From assembly GCA_030627235.1 (NCBI GenBank), contig DAOUSL010000023.1:1-32840 (forward strand): a stretch of 32,840 nucleotides of DNA. Direction: 5' to 3'. Below the pieces are notes generated by a model. That model saw only the letters and a program-made list of their open reading frames with translations. It searched no databases and was not told where the DNA came from. Below are positions 13,018-29,876 of the stretch, one piece after another (position 1 is the stretch's first letter; every line of letters starts with the position of its first letter). The DNA comes from Thioploca sp. GTDB lineage: Bacteria; Pseudomonadota; Gammaproteobacteria; Beggiatoales; Beggiatoaceae. A program made the position numbers and the translations under genes.

Positions 13018-14169
13018 TTATTGGTGATATACAGGATTAATCTTTGAAATTGATGCAGAATTATCAAAACAACCAACATTATACAACACAGTCGTATCTC
13101 CAATTTTAGTCCTTAATATTCCATTAACCAAAGTTTTCCAATCTATCAGATGATGAAAGCGAACCAAACCGTAATTTTTGGTGATAAATTTTTCTCTTTC
13201 TGCTTCTGCTATTGGATCGTATGAACTATGGTTATCGTAGCCATTACATTCTAAAATGAGGTTTAAGTCTTTGACGAAGAAATCTACTCGGTATTTGCCG
13301 ATTTGGTAATTATGCTGAAAACCAAGATTCTCAAATACTTGACTAAGAACTAGTTGCCATTCTATCTCTCCTTTAGTATCCAGTTTATCCAAGGTGCTGA
13401 TAGTTCCAAATACTTGTTTCTTCAGTTCGATTCCAATTACTGAATCCATACCAAGAACCATTTTACCAACGTCTTCCAGTGAATAACCGTTCATGCGGTT
13501 GGCTGTAGAACCAGATTGTCTGATAGTTGGAATGTCAAGTTGAATTGTGTTGATGGCATCGGTATGGGTTTTTAGGTAATAATTTATAGTGCTGATTGGG
13601 AGTTTGGTGAATTTGGCAATGTCTTTCTTGGTAGCAATATTACCTTCAACTGAACAGATAAACTTTAAATATTTTAGTAGTTTAACAACATCTGTGTAAC
13701 TTTTTTGGGAAATCTTTTGGATGTTGGGATTTAGACCACAGGCTTGTTTTATGGCTGATTCTAAGGCGGTTTGTACTAAAATCATTAAAAGAGTAACAGC
13801 CCTTTTACCAATATGAATTTGATTTTTACGTAATCCATCTTTGATGAAGGCAGAAGTATATGAATGGATTAGTAACTGAATTATTTCAGTAGAGTAAACT
13901 ACTATTTCTCTACCATGATAGGGACTTTGTCGAGTTGATACATTAACAAAGTTTCCCCTCATGGTCTTGCCCTTATCAATAAAGGGTTTAAGAGTTTTTG
14001 GAGGCCAGTTTCCCCTCATGGCCTTGAGAGTTTTTTGATCCATTCCTAATAGATCAGCAGTACCACGTTCGCTTAAACAGGCAGTGCCATCAGACAGAAT
14101 ATATCCGTCACACTTTACACCAGGGATTAATTCAATTTCCCCATAGTGTATAGCTTCTAATTTTTGCAT
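13018..14169 (-). CDS. Protein with DUF559-like endonuclease domain, intact downstream tandem copy
   Basis: The 383-residue protein is not one I can name. Residues 1-35 form a conserved opening (MQKLEAIHYGEIELIPG...). Residues 36-140 form a variable module with a helix-turn-helix-like start (ERGTADLLGMDQKTLKAM). Residues 141-240 include a second predicted DNA-binding segment (TKKDIAKFTKLPISTINYYL). The C-terminal 260-370 region resembles DUF559/very-short-patch-like nucleases: YRVDFFV with D296, ILECNGYDNH with E307, then an AEREKFITKNYGLVRFH helix-strand. Similar folds cut or bind DNA, but activity here is inferred. MRGN occurs twice, 19 codons apart. A broken near-copy lies just upstream at 14449-15593. 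The last codons overlap repeat-like sequence and the stop sits one base before the glycerate kinase ATG. Confidence 0.7.
   Translation of the reverse strand: MQKLEAIHYGEIELIPGVKCDGYILSDGTACLSERGTADLLGMDQKTLKAMRGNWPPKTLKPFIDKGKTMRGNFVNVSTRQSPYHGREIVVYSTEIIQLLIHSYTSAFIKDGLRKNQIHIGKRAVTLLMILVQTALESAIKQACGLNPNIQKISQKSYTDVVKLLKYLKFICSVEGNIATKKDIAKFTKLPISTINYYLKTHTDAINTIQLDIPTIRQSGSTANRMNGYSLEDVGKMVLGMDSVIGIELKKQVFGTISTLDKLDTKGEIEWQLVLSQVFENLGFQHNYQIGKYRVDFFVKDLNLILECNGYDNHSSYDPIAEAEREKFITKNYGLVRFHHLIDWKTLVNGILRTKIGDTTVLYNVGCFDNSASISKINPVYHQ
13950..14021. repeat. 15-bp direct repeat inside the downstream paralogue (57-bp period)
   Basis: AGTTTCCCCTCATGG occurs at 13950-13964 and again at 14007-14021, exactly 57 bp (19 codons) apart and in the same reading frame, so both copies encode MRGN. 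The corresponding positions in the upstream paralogue carry a different repeated 15-mer (15374-15445). Confidence 0.85.
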
Positions 14170-14250
14170 AGTTTTTTACCATTGAAATGATAATTAGATT
14201 ATACCAGAATAGTTTTTGGATATGCAAATGGGTTGGGATTAAAGGATAAA

Positions 14251-14396
14251 TTGTCTGAATCAGAATTAACAGAATTTAAGGATTTTCAGAATTTAAAAGC
14301 GTTAAAATCAAATTGGTTTTGATTGTAAATTATTCTTTAATGATCTCGCTTAAACCATGCTCGTTACTTCGTTTCTGTGAATTCTGATTCAGACAA
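14251..14396. repeat. Inverted-repeat element with 17-bp perfect ends
   Basis: TTGTCTGAATCAGAATT (14251-14267) and AATTCTGATTCAGACAA (14380-14396) are exact reverse complements flanking 112 bp without an ORF. It lies between the two nuclease-like paralogues, outside the stretch they share. Related TGTCTGAAT/ATTCAGACA ends recur at 31583-31647, and a single arm lies near 11755. Confidence 0.75.
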
Positions 14397-14405
14397 CTAA
14401 TTATT

Positions 14406-14485
14406 TTTGAACATGATTTAACGAATTAAATGATAAAACATGATTAAATCAAAAACATATCGGTTTAAAATCCTGTCCATCCTTA
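14406..14485. repeat. 80-bp direct repeat, copy A (overlaps the 3' end of the broken paralogue)
   Basis: This segment matches 15672-15751 in the same orientation over 80 bp with one substitution that I can see. It supplies the last codons (KDGQDFKPICF) and stop of the frameshifted paralogue on the minus strand. Part of it (TTTAATCCGTTAAATC-like sequence on the minus strand) recurs near 31540-31573. Confidence 0.85.
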
Positions 14486-15593
14486 TTCTCAAAACAACCA
14501 ACATTATACAACACAGTCGTATCTCCAATTTTAGTCCGTAAAATCCCATTAACCAATGTTTTCCAGTCTATCAAATGATGGAAACGAACTAAACTATAAT
14601 TTTTGGTGATAAATTTCTCTCTTTCTGCTTCTGCTATTGGATCGTATGAACTATGGTTGTCATAGCCATTGCATTCTAGGATTAAGTTTAAGTCTTTGAC
14701 GAAGAAATCTACTCGATATTTGCCGATTTGGTAATTATGCTGAAAACCAAGATTCTCAAATACTTGACTAAGGACTAGTTGCCATTCTATCTCTCCTTTA
14801 GTATCTAATTTATCCAAAGTACTGATAGTTCCAAATACCTGTTTCTTCAGTTCGATTCCTATTACTGAATCCATGCCAAGAACCATTTTACCAACGTCTT
14901 CTAGTGAGTAACCATTCATGCGGTTAGCTGTAGAACCAGATTGTCTAATGGTTGGAATATCAAGTTGAATTGTGTTGATGGCATCGGTATGGGTTTTTAG
15001 GTAATAATTTATAGTGCTGATTGGGAGTTTGGTGAATTTGGCAATGTCTTTCTTGGTGGCAATATCACCTTCAACTGAACAGATAAACTTTAAATCTTTT
15101 AGTAGTTTAACAACATCTGTGTAACTTTTTGGGCAATCTTTTGGATGTTGGGGTTGAGGCCACAGGCTTGTTTTATGGCGGATTCAAGGGCGGTTATAAT
15201 AAGAGCAGATTGTAAGATTATACTTCTTTTACCAATATGTATTTGAGTTGGCCTTAAAACATCATTTGCCAATGCTAGGGCATATCCACGAATAAAAGAT
15301 TCAATAAAGTGACTATCATAGACAACTATATTTCGTCCTTGGTATGGACTATTTTTAGCTGTTACTTTTATCAATTTAGGTACAATGCTTGGAACATTAC
15401 CAATAAACGGTTTAAGTGTTTTTGGAGGCCATTTAGGTACAATGCGTCTGAGAGCAGGACGTTGTATTCCTAAAAGCTTTGCAACCCCATTTTCACTTAA
15501 ACATGCAGTACCATCAGATAAAACATATCCGTCACACTTTATACCAGGAATTAATTCAATTTCCCCATAGTGTATAGCTTCTAATTTTTGCAT
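14449..15593 (-). pseudogene. Frameshifted upstream copy of the DUF559-like nuclease paralogue
   Basis: Two reading frames together make one protein homologous along its length to the product of 13018-14169. The N-terminal part (15593 down to about 15125) carries the shared opening, its own variable module and QACGLNPNIQKIAQK. The C-terminal part continues in another frame down to 14449 with FICSVEGDIATKKD, the DNA-binding segment and the nuclease motifs VDFFV and ILECNGYDNH. The frames change at a homopolymer: near 15126 there are five T residues on the plus strand where the intact copy has six (near 13701). A one-base deletion therefore stops the first part after VTQMLLNY. The nuclease half is intact and could be made from an internal start such as the Met of MNGYSLEDV. 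Sequencing error or slippage-based switching are alternatives to decay. Confidence 0.8.
15374..15445. repeat. 15-bp direct repeat inside the upstream paralogue (57-bp period)
   Basis: ATTTAGGTACAATGC occurs at 15374-15388 and 15431-15445, again 57 bp apart and in frame, so both copies encode IVPK. The positions are equivalent to the MRGN pair of the other paralogue, while the codons between the copies (WPPKTLKPFI) are shared by both genes. Confidence 0.85.
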
Positions 15594-15999: not shown

Positions 16000-18900
16000 T
16001 TATTGTGTGAATGTTGAAGAAGGATTACCTAAATCATCATAATTTTCAATATTTTTTAACTCATTCAAAAAGTTTTGCATAAATATTGAGCGATCAAGAT
16101 TTCCAGATTCTATCCACAACTCTATACTTTTTTCAAGCATAATATATGCTAATTGTAAATTTCCATAATTTGAATATGTACTTCCTAGATTGGCATACGT
16201 TTCAGCTATTCCTGATTTATTAGAGATTTCTTGATTAATTTCTATACTCCTTAAATACATCTTTTCTGCTAACAAAAAATTATTATTCAAACTATAAAAT
16301 GTACCAAAATTATGGTAAGTTTGTGCCATACCTTGTTTGCATAATTCATCCGTTTTTCCTTCTTTTTTTAGCTCTTCAAAAAATTCTATGCTTGATTTAT
16401 AAGCATTTTCTGCTTCTTTTTGTAGGTTTAAGGCCATATAAGTCATGCCAAGTTCATTATATACCTTTGCCATTCCTTCTTTATTTTCCCCTTCTTTATA
16501 AATTTCCAAGCTTTTAGAATAAAGTTGTTCTGCTTGATTGAAATCTCCAACATCATAATAAATAACACCTAATTCAATATATTTATCAGCTATATTATCT
16601 ATTATATGATAACGTTTTTCTGTAGATTTTATACTTTTATGATAAAAGTTTATAGCTTCTTGAATGTTACCAATTGAAAGATGTAAATCTCCAAGTGACC
16701 AATATATATCAGTGATACTTTCCTTATCATTTTCATTTTTATTGTCCAAACTTTCATAAAGTTTTGCACTTTGTAAATATGAATTTTCTGCTTGTTGTAA
16801 CTTTTCATATTCAAAATATAAATTGCCCAATCTTTCATAATTAATAGCTAGTGATTTTTTATCAGCAGAATCTCCTAAAATTTCTATACTTCCAAGATAC
16901 ATTTTTTCTGCTTCCTGAAAATTTCCAAGTTGTCTAAAAACAATACCCATATTTCCTAAAACTACACTTATCAATTCATTATGTTTCAAAGATTTAAAAA
17001 TATTCAAGCTTTTTTCATATGCATTCATGGCTTGCTCATATTTATTATCCATATATAGAGAACTACCTATATCATTATAATTATTGGCACTTGCTGCATA
17101 CATTTCTTCAGCTTTTTCAGTATCTCCAATATTTTCATATAAGTGAGCTACATTCGTATAAACATCTTCTTCTGAATTAAAAGTATGTTTTGCATTTAAC
17201 AACTCTGCAATTTTTTGGAATTTAGAAACGGCTTTTTCTATTTTATTTTCTGTCTGTAAAGAGTCAATTTGTTCTATTAACACAGGAATAACTAATTTCC
17301 GTAATTCATAATTAGGATTAATATCTAATTCTGGATTTAATTCTATTGCCTTAAGAAAGAAATTTTTCGCATCATCAACATTACCTTCTTTTGCTAATTT
17401 TTTTGCAGCTCTGGTTAAATTTGATGGATTTTGACATACTTTTAATGATTTTAATTCTTGAGGATGAGTTGCTAAATAATTGTTAAGCCATTCACATCCA
17501 TCTTTTGTTAATTTATCAATATCTAAACTCCAAATAACTTCTTTTCCATCAATGGTAATACTTAAACCACTACCATCAGGAAGAAAACTAGCATTATCTC
17601 CTTGAATTGAATCTATCAATGTTCCATCAATCTTCCAAAGTTTTGTATCACCTCTACTGCTAGAAATAATTATTTTTTCATCAGGGCTAAAACTTACATT
17701 ATCAATGCCAGTATCTGTAGGATAAAAACTATTAAAACTTTTTTCTTTATGACCAAAATGTCCTTTAAATGTACTAATAAGTTTATCGTCTTTACTCAAT
17801 AATTTAACAATTCTCGGATAGTCAACTATAACTTTGATTTTATTAGTTGGACTAATAAAAATTTCTTGTTTATTTTCAATAAAATAATTATCTGCATCAA
17901 TGTCTTCTTCTAGTTTAATTTCCTGAAAATCTGTGCTAGTTTCATGAGGAATATTTTTTTCAACTTTAGAAAGTTGTGAGCCATTTAAATCCCATAAAAT
18001 AATGGTTGCATCAAAACCAGCAGTTGCTAAAAATTTTCCATCAGGACTAAATATAGCATTTCTTAAAGTACCACGATGTCCAACAAGAGTATCTATAACT
18101 TTGCCATCCAGATTGAAAATTTTTACAAGTGCATTATTAGAACAAGCTGCCGCTATTTTTTGTCCATCTACACTAAAATCTAAAGTCCAAGGTTTACAAT
18201 CAATTTTTGGAAACGTTTTCAATAAATTTCCCTTGTTATCCCATAATTTTATGGAAGTAGGATCGTTATAAGAAACAAATTTCTGATTATCAGGACTAAT
18301 ATCTATTGCACTCCACCAATTATCATCTTCAGTATACTCTTTTTCTACAAGTTTTTTTATAGTCTTGAATGTATCATTTTCTACTGACCAAATTTGAACA
18401 GAATCACCACCTGATGCACCAAATAACCTGCCATTTGGACTAAACACAATATCTGTTGCAAAAAAATCTAGGGTTTGTATTAGCTTATTATCAGCTAATC
18501 TCCAAATTTTTATATCACCACCAGTCGATGCTAAAAATTTTCCATCTGAACTAAATTCAACATCGTAAATTAATGGATTGCCATCATCTAATAAACTAAT
18601 TAAATTACCATCAATTGTTTGTAATTCAACATAATTATTTCCTGCTAATGCTATAATTTTACCGTCTTTGCTAAAAGAAACACTTTTACCACCAGATTGA
18701 GTATTTGGCCACAACGTTCTTACTAAAGAACCATCTATTTTCCATAATTTCCATCCTTTAGATAATCCTTCTACAGCAGAAGTAACAATATATTTACCAT
18801 CAGGGCTAAAACTAAGTCTTGTAATCTCACCATAATGCCCTTCTAAGCGATTATATTGTTTAATTTGGTAAAGAATTTTTTGTAATGTAGTCGCAACAGT

Positions 18901-20286
18901 TATCTGTGTATCAGACTCAATTTTTCCGAGTAAAGCTTTCTTTTTTAGTTGTTGTCCTATTTTGATAATTTCTATTAAAGCTTCAATTTCTAAATGAGCA
19001 TCAAACATTGCTTCTGCTGTATTAGACATTGCCTTTAATTGAGAATTATCTCTTTCTTGTTTTGAACGTTGGCTTTCATCTTCAGCTAATTTTTGCTGTA
19101 TTTGAGCAAATTTACTTTGTTCTTCAGCTACAATCCGCTGCTCATTAGCATAAAAAGCAATCCCAACTAATACCAAAGCCACCGCCCCAGCCTGTATCAA
19201 ACCACGCCTAAACGCAGACTTCTGCCGCCGCTTCTCCGCATCCGGCATATTCCCATCAATCCACACCTTATCAAACACCTGAGAATAAATTCGATTCCGT
19301 ACCTGCAAACAGTTCCCTTTAACATGTACTAAACCAGCCAACCGCAAAGTATTAATCAAATCATTCGTATCATCATCCCGCACTCTCTTACCACTACGAA
19401 CCTGCCGATACAAATCCAATACCGCCGCTGTATCCTTCCTCTCATCCAAAACCTGACTACGAACATGCTGCAAATTATTCTCAGCATCCCGTGACCGACT
19501 AGAAAAAAACACCTCCTCACAAAGCTTATCCACCACCATCTCATCATCAACCATCAACTGACAAAGTTTCTGAGTTAAATAAGGATGCCCATTAGTCCAA
19601 TATAATATCCGCTTTAATAACTTATCATCACGCAACCCCTGCCCAAACAAAGCCGCCTCAGCCTCAGAAAAATCAGCCAAATCAATTCGCTTACCAATAT
19701 TAAATGGCGTAATCTGAGGATCAGCAATCAAATCAGACGGCGTAGCCACCCCAATCAAACAAAAAGTCAACCGCTGTAAATCCGAATCCTGAGTTCGATT
19801 GTTATAACATTCACGAATCCCCGCAAAAAATTCATCAGTCGAAAATGGTAAACTGAGAACAACATCAATCTCATCCAAACAAATCACCAATGGTTGTTGA
19901 GAATCAGCTAAAACAACAGAACGAATCGCCTGTATCCAACGTTGCAAAGTCCCAAGTTCTTTATTTTCTTGCCAAAATTTGCGTAATTGTCGGTTTAACC
20001 CCAAATTTCTGCCAATCTTATTTAATAAACCGTTATACCACTGCTCAACATTTAAATTAGTACCGATACCAGTCATTTCCAATACAACTACTGCTGCTCC
20101 ATCAAGGCGTAATCGTTCTGCTACCCGCACCATCAAAGAACTCTTCCCCATCTGGCGACTTGTCAACACATAACAATACTCAGCCTGCTTCAACGCCTCA
20201 TACAAATCAGTATCAGCTTGACGCTGAATATAAGAAGGAGCATCTTCAGGTAAAGTTCCTCCCTTAGCAAAGTAAAAATCTTTCAT
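16000..20286 (-). CDS. AAA-like (AAA_35) ATPase with transmembrane helix, WD40 propeller and TPR domain
   Basis: The 1428-residue protein starts with an AAA-like/STAND-type ATPase of AAA_35 type (about 1-350): Walker [10 protein letters not shown] near 42-50, Walker [11 protein letters not shown] near 132-141, and a C-terminal helical lid with [12 protein letters not shown]. One transmembrane helix follows (about 362-381, [15 protein letters not shown]), then a charged coiled coil (about 385-470). Eight or nine WD40 repeats (about 484-915, FSPDGK...LW pattern) follow. A CEWL...HPQ linker leads to about ten TPR helices (about 960-1410). The architecture suggests membrane-anchored, ligand-sensing signalling through an NTP-driven switch, inferred from the family. 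It follows the protease-ATPase gene by 60 bases containing a palindrome. The ATPase-encoding end is much GC-richer than the WD40/TPR part, which suggests a mosaic origin. Confidence 0.88.
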
Positions 20287-20305
20287 ATTGGTAATCTCTC
20301 TTGTT

Positions 20306-20338
20306 AGACCTGACAGGTTTTGGAAACCTGTCAGGTCT
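20306..20338. repeat. Perfect 15-bp palindrome between the two ATPase genes
   Basis: AGACCTGACAGGTTT (20306-20320) and AAACCTGTCAGGTCT (20324-20338) form a 15-bp stem with a three-base loop. On the minus (coding) strand no T-run follows, so it is not a textbook terminator; on the plus strand TTTCGTTTATT follows. The palindrome is of a kind dispersed in many bacterial genomes. It could lower expression of the large gene relative to the protease-ATPase. Confidence 0.75.
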
Positions 20339-20346
20339 TTCGTTTA

Positions 20347-22056
20347 TTAAAACAAATGTTCCCGCAAATAATGCTCATAAATTTTACAGCGTAAACTAAC
20401 CTTATCCTTTGAATCACCTCGTAAAATACCAGCACTTCGCAACCGATAAAAAGAATCATAATCCGGGCAAGATTGGCCTCGTAATACATTTTGCATAGCT
20501 GGTAACAACTGTTCATCATCACTGATTAATCTAACAATTCTTCGCAAATGCTCACTATAAGTCCCATTATCACGAGTAGATTTACCGATAAATTCATCCA
20601 AAGCCAAATTATAATTAACTAAATCATTCAAACCACATCGTACCAAATACGGTTGTCCACCAACCAATTGATAAAACTGCTTAATTTCCTTATTATTTTT
20701 GAGCGGTAAACCATAACGTTGATTGAGCATAGCCACTTGTTTAAGGGTAAAATCCTCTAAAAACAACTTAGTCCCCACATTAAATGGTGATTGATTCTGA
20801 TCTTTAATAAACAAATAAGTTTCAGTTGCATAAGCAATAGCTAATGTTAAGCGTGAACAAGGATTAGAAGGATTTAACGCTCGCTCATTGTGCCAAGTAC
20901 GAAATAACGCAAAAATTTCATTACTAAAGGGACAGTTAAATAGAATATCAGCTTCATCAATTCCCCATAATACTGGTTTTTCAGTTGTTTCCAATATATT
21001 ATCAATAAAATAGTTTTCAAAATTAATGTTAGCTGGGTAATCAGCTTGCCAAACATCTTGAGGTAAAACACGCAAACGCAGTTGTCGCGCAAACATCTGT
21101 CCAATAGCAATAAAAAAAGTATCCAAACTTTGCAGTTGGGTATCAATTAACTTTTGAAAATCAGTCAACAATACCAAAACTCCAGCTTCTCGTGCTTGTT
21201 GTAAACCTTTAGCTAATAATGAAGTTTTACCAACTTGCCGAGGGCCTTTCAACAATACAATACTATCTCGCCGTTTAATCGCGGTTTGAAATTCTGTATC
21301 AACTTGCCGCTCCACATAAAATTTAGAATTTAATGGCATCGCACCTCCGCATGGTTCTATTGGCGGTGATTTGGATAATGGTTTAGTAGGAAATTTTTTA
21401 GGAAGCTGTTTTAGTGGTTGGTTTAATAATTGCTCATCCCAAGCTTTTGCTACAACTTGATTAATTTGTTCCAATTCTCGCCATTTTTTAAACAGAGGTT
21501 CAAATTTAGTAGCTAAACCAGTGTTTAACATTATTTTATAGCCTTCAGTCACCAATCCAACCACTCGCTGAGTTTCGTAATGATAAACCAATCCACCACT
21601 ATGGCCTTGCCCTTTTGCTACATCATTTTCAATTTTATTACCACGAAATTTAGAAATATTTCCTAAATAAATACCAATATCTTGATTATCTGCAATATTT
21701 CCCGCCGGATAACCAACTGAAACCAGCTCATCAGTTTTATGTTTATCAGCAACAAATCCTAACGGTAAATAATGATTTGGTTTATACTCAATTTTTAACA
21801 CCGCAATATCATATTTTAAATCTCGCAGTGATTTTGAATTATCAAGCAATGCTGGAAATTTTCCATCAAACTGCGTTTCAACAAAAATATCTTTGGGAGA
21901 CTCACCAACACAATGATAAGCAGTTAATAAATAACCATCGAGAGTGATAAAAAAACCAGTGCCACGAAATTCATAATTTCCCCCTACTTTTTCAAAAATT
22001 TTAACGCTGGCATCGGTTAATTCACGGTGGATTTGTTGTTTTAGTTGTTTTGTCAT
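20347..22056 (-). CDS. Cytoplasmic trypsin-like serine protease fused to an AAA-like (STAND-type) ATPase
   Basis: The 569-residue protein has no signal peptide. Residues 1-185 are a trypsin-like peptidase with a complete candidate triad: H48 in LLTAYHCVG, D83 in KYDIAVLKI, and S153 in KGQGHSGGLVY (GHSGG instead of the usual GNSGG). A proline/lysine-rich linker (about 205-235) leads to an AAA_35-like ATPase (about 240-569). This shows Walker A KGPRQVGKTSLL and Walker B VLWGIDEADIL, and VGGQPYLVRCGL corresponds to the NGHPYLTQ element of the larger neighbour. A winged-helix-like tail ends the protein. Protease-ATPase fusions are a recurrent architecture of STAND-type conflict proteins, where sensing triggers proteolysis. 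That role is inferred here from domains and neighbours. It lies 41 bases after the small protein gene. Confidence 0.85.
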   Translation of the reverse strand: MTKQLKQQIHRELTDASVKIFEKVGGNYEFRGTGFFITLDGYLLTAYHCVGESPKDIFVETQFDGKFPALLDNSKSLRDLKYDIAVLKIEYKPNHYLPLGFVADKHKTDELVSVGYPAGNIADNQDIGIYLGNISKFRGNKIENDVAKGQGHSGGLVYHYETQRVVGLVTEGYKIMLNTGLATKFEPLFKKWRELEQINQVVAKAWDEQLLNQPLKQLPKKFPTKPLSKSPPIEPCGGAMPLNSKFYVERQVDTEFQTAIKRRDSIVLLKGPRQVGKTSLLAKGLQQAREAGVLVLLTDFQKLIDTQLQSLDTFFIAIGQMFARQLRLRVLPQDVWQADYPANINFENYFIDNILETTEKPVLWGIDEADILFNCPFSNEIFALFRTWHNERALNPSNPCSRLTLAIAYATETYLFIKDQNQSPFNVGTKLFLEDFTLKQVAMLNQRYGLPLKNNKEIKQFYQLVGGQPYLVRCGLNDLVNYNLALDEFIGKSTRDNGTYSEHLRRIVRLISDDEQLLPAMQNVLRGQSCPDYDSFYRLRSAGILRGDSKDKVSLRCKIYEHYLREHLF

Positions 22057-29372: not shown

Positions 29373-29876
29373 ATGTTTAAATGGAATTTGGATAAAATAC
29401 TCTTTGATACTCGGGGGGTTACTTTTGATGAAGTTGTTCAAGATATTGGTTATGGTGTATCTGATGTTCCGCACTGGAATAAGAAAAAATATCCAAATCA
29501 AAGAATTATTACTGTAATGTTAAATGGTTACGCATATTTAGTACCGTATGTTCGTGATGGTGAACATTATTTTCTTAAAACAATAATCCCAAGTAGGAAA
29601 GAAAATAAAGAGGTCAAAAAAATGTCTAACAATGGACTTGATAGTGAAGAATTAGAGATTTTTGAGGCATATGAAAGTGGAAAATTAAATAGTTCTCATC
29701 TTTCAGATTCAATGGTTCTTGTTGCTAAAGAAACTATGAAAAAGAATAAAAATATTAATATTAGAATTTCTGAAAATGATTTGGAGGCTATTAAATTACG
29801 TGCTGCAAGGGAGGGAATACCTTATCAAACTTTAATTGGTAGTATACTTCATAAATATGCAGCAGGTTATATTTGA
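29373..29876 (+). CDS. BrnT-like toxin fused in frame to CopG-like antitoxin
   Basis: The 167-residue protein joins two normally separate proteins. Residues 1-83 resemble BrnT-type toxins: MFKWNLDK, RGVTFDEVVQDI, KYPNQRIITVML, AYLVPYVRDG and the terminal LKTIIPSRKENK. Residues 84-167 begin with their own Met and form a ribbon-helix-helix antitoxin: acidic start LDSEELEIFEAYE, then NINIRISENDLEAIKLRAAR and EGIPYQTLIGSILHKYAAG. The internal ATG (29622) has a good ribosome-binding site (GAGG, eight bases upstream), so the antitoxin can be made alone. The junction is an A7 run (29616-29622). One extra A would make the toxin end VKKNV-stop just past the antitoxin start, the usual two-gene layout. 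The fusion may be real, a recent deletion, slippage-controlled, or a sequencing error. Confidence 0.72.
   Translation: MFKWNLDKILFDTRGVTFDEVVQDIGYGVSDVPHWNKKKYPNQRIITVMLNGYAYLVPYVRDGEHYFLKTIIPSRKENKEVKKMSNNGLDSEELEIFEAYESGKLNSSHLSDSMVLVAKETMKKNKNINIRISENDLEAIKLRAAREGIPYQTLIGSILHKYAAGYI

Follow-up and report, generated by a model that had tools for sequence, protein, structure and literature searches.

Why should two neighbouring genes each carry one short DNA word twice, at the same two positions and at the same distance, with a different word in each gene? This question is raised by a pair of minus-strand genes on contig DAOUSL010000023.1 of Thioploca sp. (assembly GCA_030627235.1). The stretch analysed, referred to below as the window, is this one entire contig of 32,840 nucleotides (nt), from a genome of 4.58 Mb in 471 contigs. 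The answer proposed here is that each protein very probably reads the twin site inside its own gene, as judged from covariation, and that this site acts as a self-recognition element, tied to its reader by a shared swappable cassette. It would thus resemble aba, the DNA element that suppresses BstA, and we put the probability of this reading at roughly 0.55. An unusual repeat would thereby be connected to a phage-defence protein already known to be silenced by part of its own gene.

Two paralogues with twin sites in a divergent module

Gene 1 (13018..14169, minus strand) is intact and encodes a protein of 383 amino acids. Its open reading frame (ORF), profile matches and a structural model indicate a BstA-like N-terminal DNA-binding domain and a C-terminal DUF559/Vsr-like nuclease domain. 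Gene 2 (14449..15593, minus strand), recognized from its ORFs and its family match, is a paralogue in two pieces: the 5′ part is an ORF of 164 amino acids (15099-15593), and the 3′ part is open in another frame. The sequence-only reading of this DNA had described tandem paralogues. Two related minus-strand genes are indeed present, but gene 2 is frameshifted, and the pair therefore consists of one intact and one broken gene.

The repeats described in that reading were recovered in full. The tetrapeptide MRGN occurs twice in gene 1 (residues 51-54 and 70-73) and IVPK twice at the same positions in gene 2; the peptide WPPKTLKPFI, which lies between the copies, is common to both. At the DNA level, a sequence search located the 15-mer CCATGAGGGGAAACT in gene 1 at 14007..14021 (copy 1) and 13950..13964 (copy 2), and GCATTGTACCTAAAT in gene 2 at 15431..15445 and 15374..15388, all on the minus strand. 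In each gene the two copies are identical and lie 57 base pairs (bp), or 19 codons, apart. Copy 1 of gene 1 overlaps the end of the modelled recognition helix (residues 45-53; 14011..14037, minus strand, positioned by arithmetic from the start codon). The helix of gene 2, placed by alignment to gene 1 and the same arithmetic, is found at 15435..15461 on the minus strand. Residues 44-47 read DQKT in gene 1, where they covary with the site, and QRPA in gene 2.

In blocks of 40 alignment columns, the DNA identity of the two genes is 88-97% over nt 8 to about 87, falls to 42-78% between about nt 88 and 407, and returns to 88-100% between about nt 408 and 1087, which bears out the near-identical flanks and the divergent middle noted before. 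On the basis of this drop, the swappable module was set at about codons 30-135, corresponding to 13765..14082 (minus strand) in gene 1, with edges good to about one 40-base block.

The twin site is kept alike at the DNA level

The two genes belong to a multi-copy family of giant sulfur bacteria, whose members combine a BstA-related helix-turn-helix domain with a DUF559/Vsr-like nuclease. A first set comprised 70 genes, 68 of which have both copies in register. For a second set, 110 domain copies were reduced to 101 distinct genes by merging those that share nt 101-300. The second set contains no 168-bp spacing and no out-of-register gene, and thus lacks four loci: L003 and L033, which have lost the unit between the sites and retain one site, and L052 and L105, which carry extra site copies 57 bp apart.

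The aligned motif positions are 57 bp apart in 99 of the 101 distinct genes and 54 bp apart in the other two. Within a gene, the copies agree on average in 13.6 of 16 bases, compared to 9.2 when pairings were shuffled (the highest of 2000 shuffles reached 9.96), and 59 different 12-mers serve as sites across the set. The sequence-only reading had asked whether the two tetrapeptides are always identical within a protein. With agreement defined as at least 13 of 16 bases alike, this holds for 48 of the 51 unfused full-length genes. An alignment-free count gave the same picture: among the 93 family genes of at least 300 nt, 73 contain an exact repeat of at least 10 bp at an offset of 57 bp, whereas any other offset from 20 to 200 yields such a repeat in at most two genes. 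The repeat is therefore not due to chance. Furthermore, at positions with the same degenerate residue in both copies, the codon is identical in 278 of 286 pairs, compared to 169.6 ± 7.0 expected. Thus, the DNA, and not the peptide alone, is kept alike.

It could be argued that the DNA has no role of its own and that the likeness of the copies reflects a constraint on protein structure, or slippage or gene conversion between the copies. The copies are in frame, 57 bp being 19 codons, and the loss of a unit in two genes and the gain of copies in two others are what direct repeats allow. Several results make this explanation very improbable: silent bases, too, are preserved and change with the helix, bstA genes with one copy upstream of the start codon show the spacing as well, and the unequal copies of fused proteins fit two different helices in four of five cases. 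In addition, two gene copies with five stop codons each (L061 and L032) have partly or wholly lost the twin match. A purely peptide reading of the tetrapeptides was rejected because of the same silent bases.

Helix residues and site bases covary

The recognition helix and the site vary together. In 85 genes, the distance between sites correlates with the divergence of residues 43-49 (r = 0.55), 96-140 (0.50) and 75-95 (0.32). Little correlation was observed for residues 1-35 (0.11), 36-42 (0.14) and 141-158 (0.06) and for the C-terminus (0.09), none of these values exceeding the largest of 500 permutations. In particular, residues 44-47 and 106-114 go with the site; residues 45-47 open the modelled recognition helix, and residue 44 immediately precedes it. 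If the first base of codon 51 is numbered 0, base 3 is G in all 50 genes with His45 and A in all 23 with Gln45; bases 10-11 are CT in all 28 genes with Gln114 and AC or AA in all 41 with Arg114. The correspondence extends to silent positions. In 41 of 43 genes, the third base of codon 52 goes with residue 46, whereas the best of 5000 permutations reached 31; the third base of the Thr53 codon is T with Ala47 (30/30) and A with Leu or His47 (8/8).

A predictor was applied to the 83 genes in which 13 or more of the 16 bases match between the copies. It ranked a gene's own site first of 31 in 66 of the 83 genes, a rate that is optimistic because residues and bases were chosen after the covariation had been seen in largely the same genes. 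This optimism is limited by leave-out versions and permutations: when modules at least 70% identical and all same-site genes were left out, 46 of 83 sites were still ranked first, compared to 1-4 of 83 for permuted sites. Given that the helix residues covary with the site, silent bases included, each protein very probably reads, and is predicted to bind, the twin site of its own gene.

Five ORFs of more than 470 amino acids are tandem fusions of two units each. In none of the 10 units do the copies agree, and each fusion protein has two helices that differ. Four of the five (L021, L023, L057 and L129) contain one twin site of which one copy fits the helix of one unit best and the other copy that of the other unit. 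Of random site-helix pairs, 12.8% score above zero, with a 95th percentile of 5.3; each of the four fusions has one fit above this value (5.8 to 7.3), and in L129 both fits exceed it. Pairing and fusions together suggest that the two copies are occupied by two subunits.

Recognition helix and site are exchanged together

The sequence-only reading had expected the module to diverge faster than its flanks. Among 92 gene pairs with a C-terminal identity of at least 85%, the mean identity of the module is only 59%, and two pairs share a site. It had offered a swappable specificity segment or an internal binding site as explanations. Both apply at once: the module holds the recognition helix as well as the matching DNA site, and a module swap therefore exchanges reader and site together. 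The comparison with HsdS, whose target-recognition domains are swappable specificity modules, holds by analogy only. The module described here also carries its own DNA target, and kinship was rejected, as no HsdS model is among the Pfam matches of gene 1.

Within one genome, the sites are distinct. Among the 83 scored genes, none of 242 pairs within a genome share a site, compared to 57 of 3161 pairs between genomes, with genome labels assigned by us from match tables. At the between-genome rate about four within-genome pairs would be expected; the depletion is therefore modest evidence, further weakened because the merging of genes also drops near-identical recent duplicates.

The C-terminal domain had been described as DUF559-like, and a Pfam DUF559 match (25.4 bits; cut-off 20.6) at residues 270-339, i.e. 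13153..13362 on the minus strand, agrees with this. A structural comparison of the domain yielded 3hrl (Z 10.8), 3r3p (Z 9.6) and 1cw0 (Z 9.2). Residues D296, E307, C308, N309, G310 and H314 are invariant in 40 aligned sequences and are candidate active-site residues of what is presumably an active nuclease.

This fold brings up a second explanation, namely that the nuclease cuts its own twin site or a same-site allele, and that repair from paralogues or other chromosome copies spreads the genes and shuffles the modules, as in homing. The C-terminal domain shares the EDxHD/Vsr fold of the I-Bth0305I catalytic domain and of Vsr (Z 9.6 and 9.2), and according to a passage in a review, I-Bth0305I forms dimers on a target of nearly 60 bp (PMC3943268), likewise a long two-part target. 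The DNA-binding domain is a different one, and here the site is located within the nuclease's own gene. The multiple copies, the many broken ones among them and the strong module exchange would also suit homing. However, homing genes as a rule lack their target or destroy it, whereas the intact genes of this family keep their presumed binding site, which may or may not be a cleavage target. Moreover, a second target to convert was not seen, since no scored within-genome pair shares a site. We therefore regard homing as unlikely.

The spacing is shared with BstA and aba

The N-terminal domain of gene 1 is related to BstA. PADLOC assigned a BstA match with E = 9e-5 (residues 24-164; profile positions 26-158 of 292), and BLASTP to BstA of prophage BTP1 aligned 58 residues with 31% identity (E = 2e-6 in a single comparison). 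According to the parts of Owen et al. 2021 (PMC8585504) that deal with aba, this element of BTP1 comprises 63 bp, suppresses BstA and ends in CCCGCC direct repeats; self-immunity is lost when a single base of these repeats is changed, and every BstA examined there is matched by a cognate aba of its own. The discussion of that paper leaves open by what mechanism aba DNA suppresses the protein.

The CCCGCC repeats of BTP1 are 56 bp apart. We compared 11 bstA genes (5 phage, 2 plasmid, 4 genome), omitting S135 as a near copy of BTP1 as well as partial-BstA matches. In nine of them, an exact repeat of at least 6 bp is present at 56 or 57 bp, aba included. The background over adjacent offset pairs is 1.2 on average (standard deviation 1.4), and the best pair that shares neither offset reaches 5. 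In a scan of 28 BstA-type relatives over 131 offsets, with ties in repeat length given to the larger offset, 57 bp ranked first in 12 cases, which are not all independent because several of the cyanobacterial genes are closely related. In four further relatives 56 or 57 bp ranked second or third, and in five fifth to eleventh (BTP1 fifth). In the literature covered by a search on BstA, aba, KilA-N and DUF559, outside which most subscription journals and preprints lay, no title or beginning of an abstract contained a twin-site rule.

The locus thus shares with BstA and aba a related N-terminal domain and a short element in its own locus with direct repeats 57 instead of 56 bp apart. It differs by its C-terminal nuclease, by sites of about 13 bp that lie fully inside the coding region at the helix codons, by many copies per genome, and by the lack of phage genes among the neighbours scanned.

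The proposed self-recognition would work as follows. Each gene would specify both a DNA-binding nuclease and the address that this nuclease recognizes. With its N-terminal helix-turn-helix, the protein would read a word of about 13 bp, present in the same gene in two copies at a distance of 57 bp where the helix codons end, and these copies would be filled by two subunits or, in a fused protein, by its two halves. When the protein is bound to its own gene, this DNA would be marked as self and the nuclease held off, and DNA lacking the word would be open to attack; that binding means self and restrains the nuclease is suggested by analogy, from the homology to BstA and the common 56/57-bp spacing. 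Recombination between paralogues would swap reader and word together and could create new matched pairs, because both share one cassette.

The main rival is autoregulation. The twin site would then be an internal operator, at which the protein blocks its own transcription and keeps a dangerous nuclease low. This is possible, and it may be true alongside self-recognition. It would explain the covariation of helix and site as well as the confinement of exact copies: with at most one mismatch, the gene 1 site occurs seven times in the genome, always within family genes, and the only two exact occurrences are in gene 1. The gene 2 site has three occurrences: two in gene 2 itself and a third, differing by one mismatch, on a contig where the family has no match. 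If each gene of a genome has a different site, crosstalk between paralogues would be avoided, and several bstA genes have their first repeat copy upstream of the start codon. Less easily explained by an operator, though compatible with one, are the twin sites that also occur in gene fragments and, from the same passages on aba (PMC8585504), the finding that aba DNA, in the only system studied by experiment, counteracts the protein in trans.

A number of observations weigh against self-recognition. Simple autoregulation would explain most of the same data. The C-terminal domain of BstA was not found in gene 1, whose profile match ends at residue 164 and whose residues 270-339 are DUF559. The repeat lies around the start codon in BTP1 and about 150 nt into the gene here; two of the 11 bstA genes have no repeat at 56/57 bp, and in seven of the 28 relatives neither offset ranks better than 27th. 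Because searches of phages and plasmids and one pattern-based scan of viral contigs gave no match to the window protein, the prophage logic of aba cannot be transferred directly. Moreover, Owen et al. (PMC8585504) report one chromosomal copy of aba that conferred no immunity. Three unfused full-length genes break the agreement of the copies. Of 42 shorter ORFs, mostly broken or edge-cut, 35 keep agreeing copies; recent decay is therefore common, and the site could also be kept up in broken genes. Among the fusions, both second-unit sites of L017 fit the second unit best, with no cross-fit, and several other sites in fused ORFs fit neither helix. The weaker fits of L021 (1.8), L023 (0.2) and L057 (3.0) are below the 95th percentile and stand out only in comparison to the other helix (-15.2, -9.7 and -4.6).

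Consequences of the proposed lock between reader and site

If reader and target are located in the same cassette of one gene, they stay matched under recombination. The family supplies dozens of matched protein-DNA pairs and a residue-to-base relation that is open to single-change tests, and the 56/57-bp spacing rule predicts where self-immunity elements are located in other BstA-type genes.

A more far-reaching proposal is a barcode system, in which each genome would hold mutually distinct self-marking nucleases and, in some genomes such as that of Parabeggiatoa 4572_84 described below, gene-less twin sites would form an immunity library against the nucleases of other strains. Of 89 twin-site places, 16 fail a crude test for the N-terminus motif and have fewer than 250 amino acids downstream; some of these still have an open frame of 39-68 amino acids upstream, so that not all are true orphans. 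Fourteen places (13 of the 16 and one entered one base out of register) were compared with the nearest full gene. The likeness of the site exceeded that of its surroundings by at least 0.1 in seven cases and slightly in two, and was lower in five, a comparison that is no test of selection because the places were chosen for matching copies. The barcode proposal is rather doubtful; if it is true, the 56/57-bp twin site would serve BstA-type proteins in general as a lock, in enterobacterial prophages as well as on cyanobacterial plasmids.

A row of five truncated module fragments with four kinds of site precedes a full gene in Parabeggiatoa 4572_84 (L149:2039-2965, NBMI01000131.1). Each fragment has a twin site whose copies are identical or differ by one mismatch, and none has an N-terminal motif upstream or an open frame of more than 80 amino acids downstream.

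Distribution, relatives and genomic surroundings

The genome of the window contains 44 family match places, many of them partial and the window pair among them. Of 57 genomes searched, including this one, 14 match; all are among the 36 from the window's own taxonomic family (0 of 21 from others), and two (G017 and G026) show a weak short match only. A pattern-based scan of genome contigs found 76 loci in Halobeggiatoa, Thiomargarita, Marithrix, Parabeggiatoa, Thioploca and Achromatium and in bins named only to Thiotrichaceae, Thiotrichales or Gammaproteobacteria. A passage of a 2017 Achromatium paper mentions numerous KilA-N proteins (PMC5587575). Outside the sulfur bacteria, members were found in a Planctomycetota bin (four loci: L111, L153, L162 and L172) and a Brocadiia bin (L168), which may reflect either transfer or a binning error. 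A phage or plasmid home for close relatives of the window protein was rejected, as tblastn against phages and plasmids gave no match and one pattern-based scan of viral contigs found none.

More distant relatives share the spacing. The BstA/KilA-N-related plasmid genes L218 (Picosynechococcus), L240 (Nostoc) and L238 (Synechocystis pSYSA) have a repeat of 9-16 bp at 57 bp, which starts at nt 135-142 (135-173 in the other genes having one), near the helix-turn-helix codons. Their C-termini are different (P63C in L240, helix-turn-helix in L238). Some cyanobacterial relatives are annotated as DNA-damage-inducible protein.

In the AlphaFold model of gene 1, the helix-turn-helix consists of helices 34-41 and 45-53 within a block (residues 21 to 130) of good confidence, with a predicted local distance difference test (pLDDT) score of 81-94; between the domains the model is poor, with scores under 50 over most of residues 150-265. 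Residues 8-148 of the model resemble Deinococcus DdrC (Z 8.1-8.3) and, at Z of about 4-5, MerR-type winged helices, a likeness that may reflect a common arrangement only. The N-terminal domain matches PHROG 2384 (E = 2e-8). A PDB fold search gave nothing at E ≤ 0.001, the best match being I-Bth0305I (E = 0.036), and NCBIfam gave no match. A viral library gave three matches at E ≤ 0.001, two nameless and one called endonuclease-like, with Bro-N and antirepressor-type entries lower down.

No phage gene was detected among the seven neighbouring proteins scanned in the window, and the prophage location of BstA behind a repressor gene was not found here. Five of the seven had Pfam matches: glycerate kinase, AAA/WD40/TPR, trypsin-AAA, macroglobulin and a CopG-type antitoxin (CopG_antitoxin, E = 2e-7; 29373-29876). 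Two adjoining AAA_35 proteins at 16000-22056, of which one also has WD40 and TPR repeats and the other a trypsin-like domain, have the look of a conflict or signalling pair.

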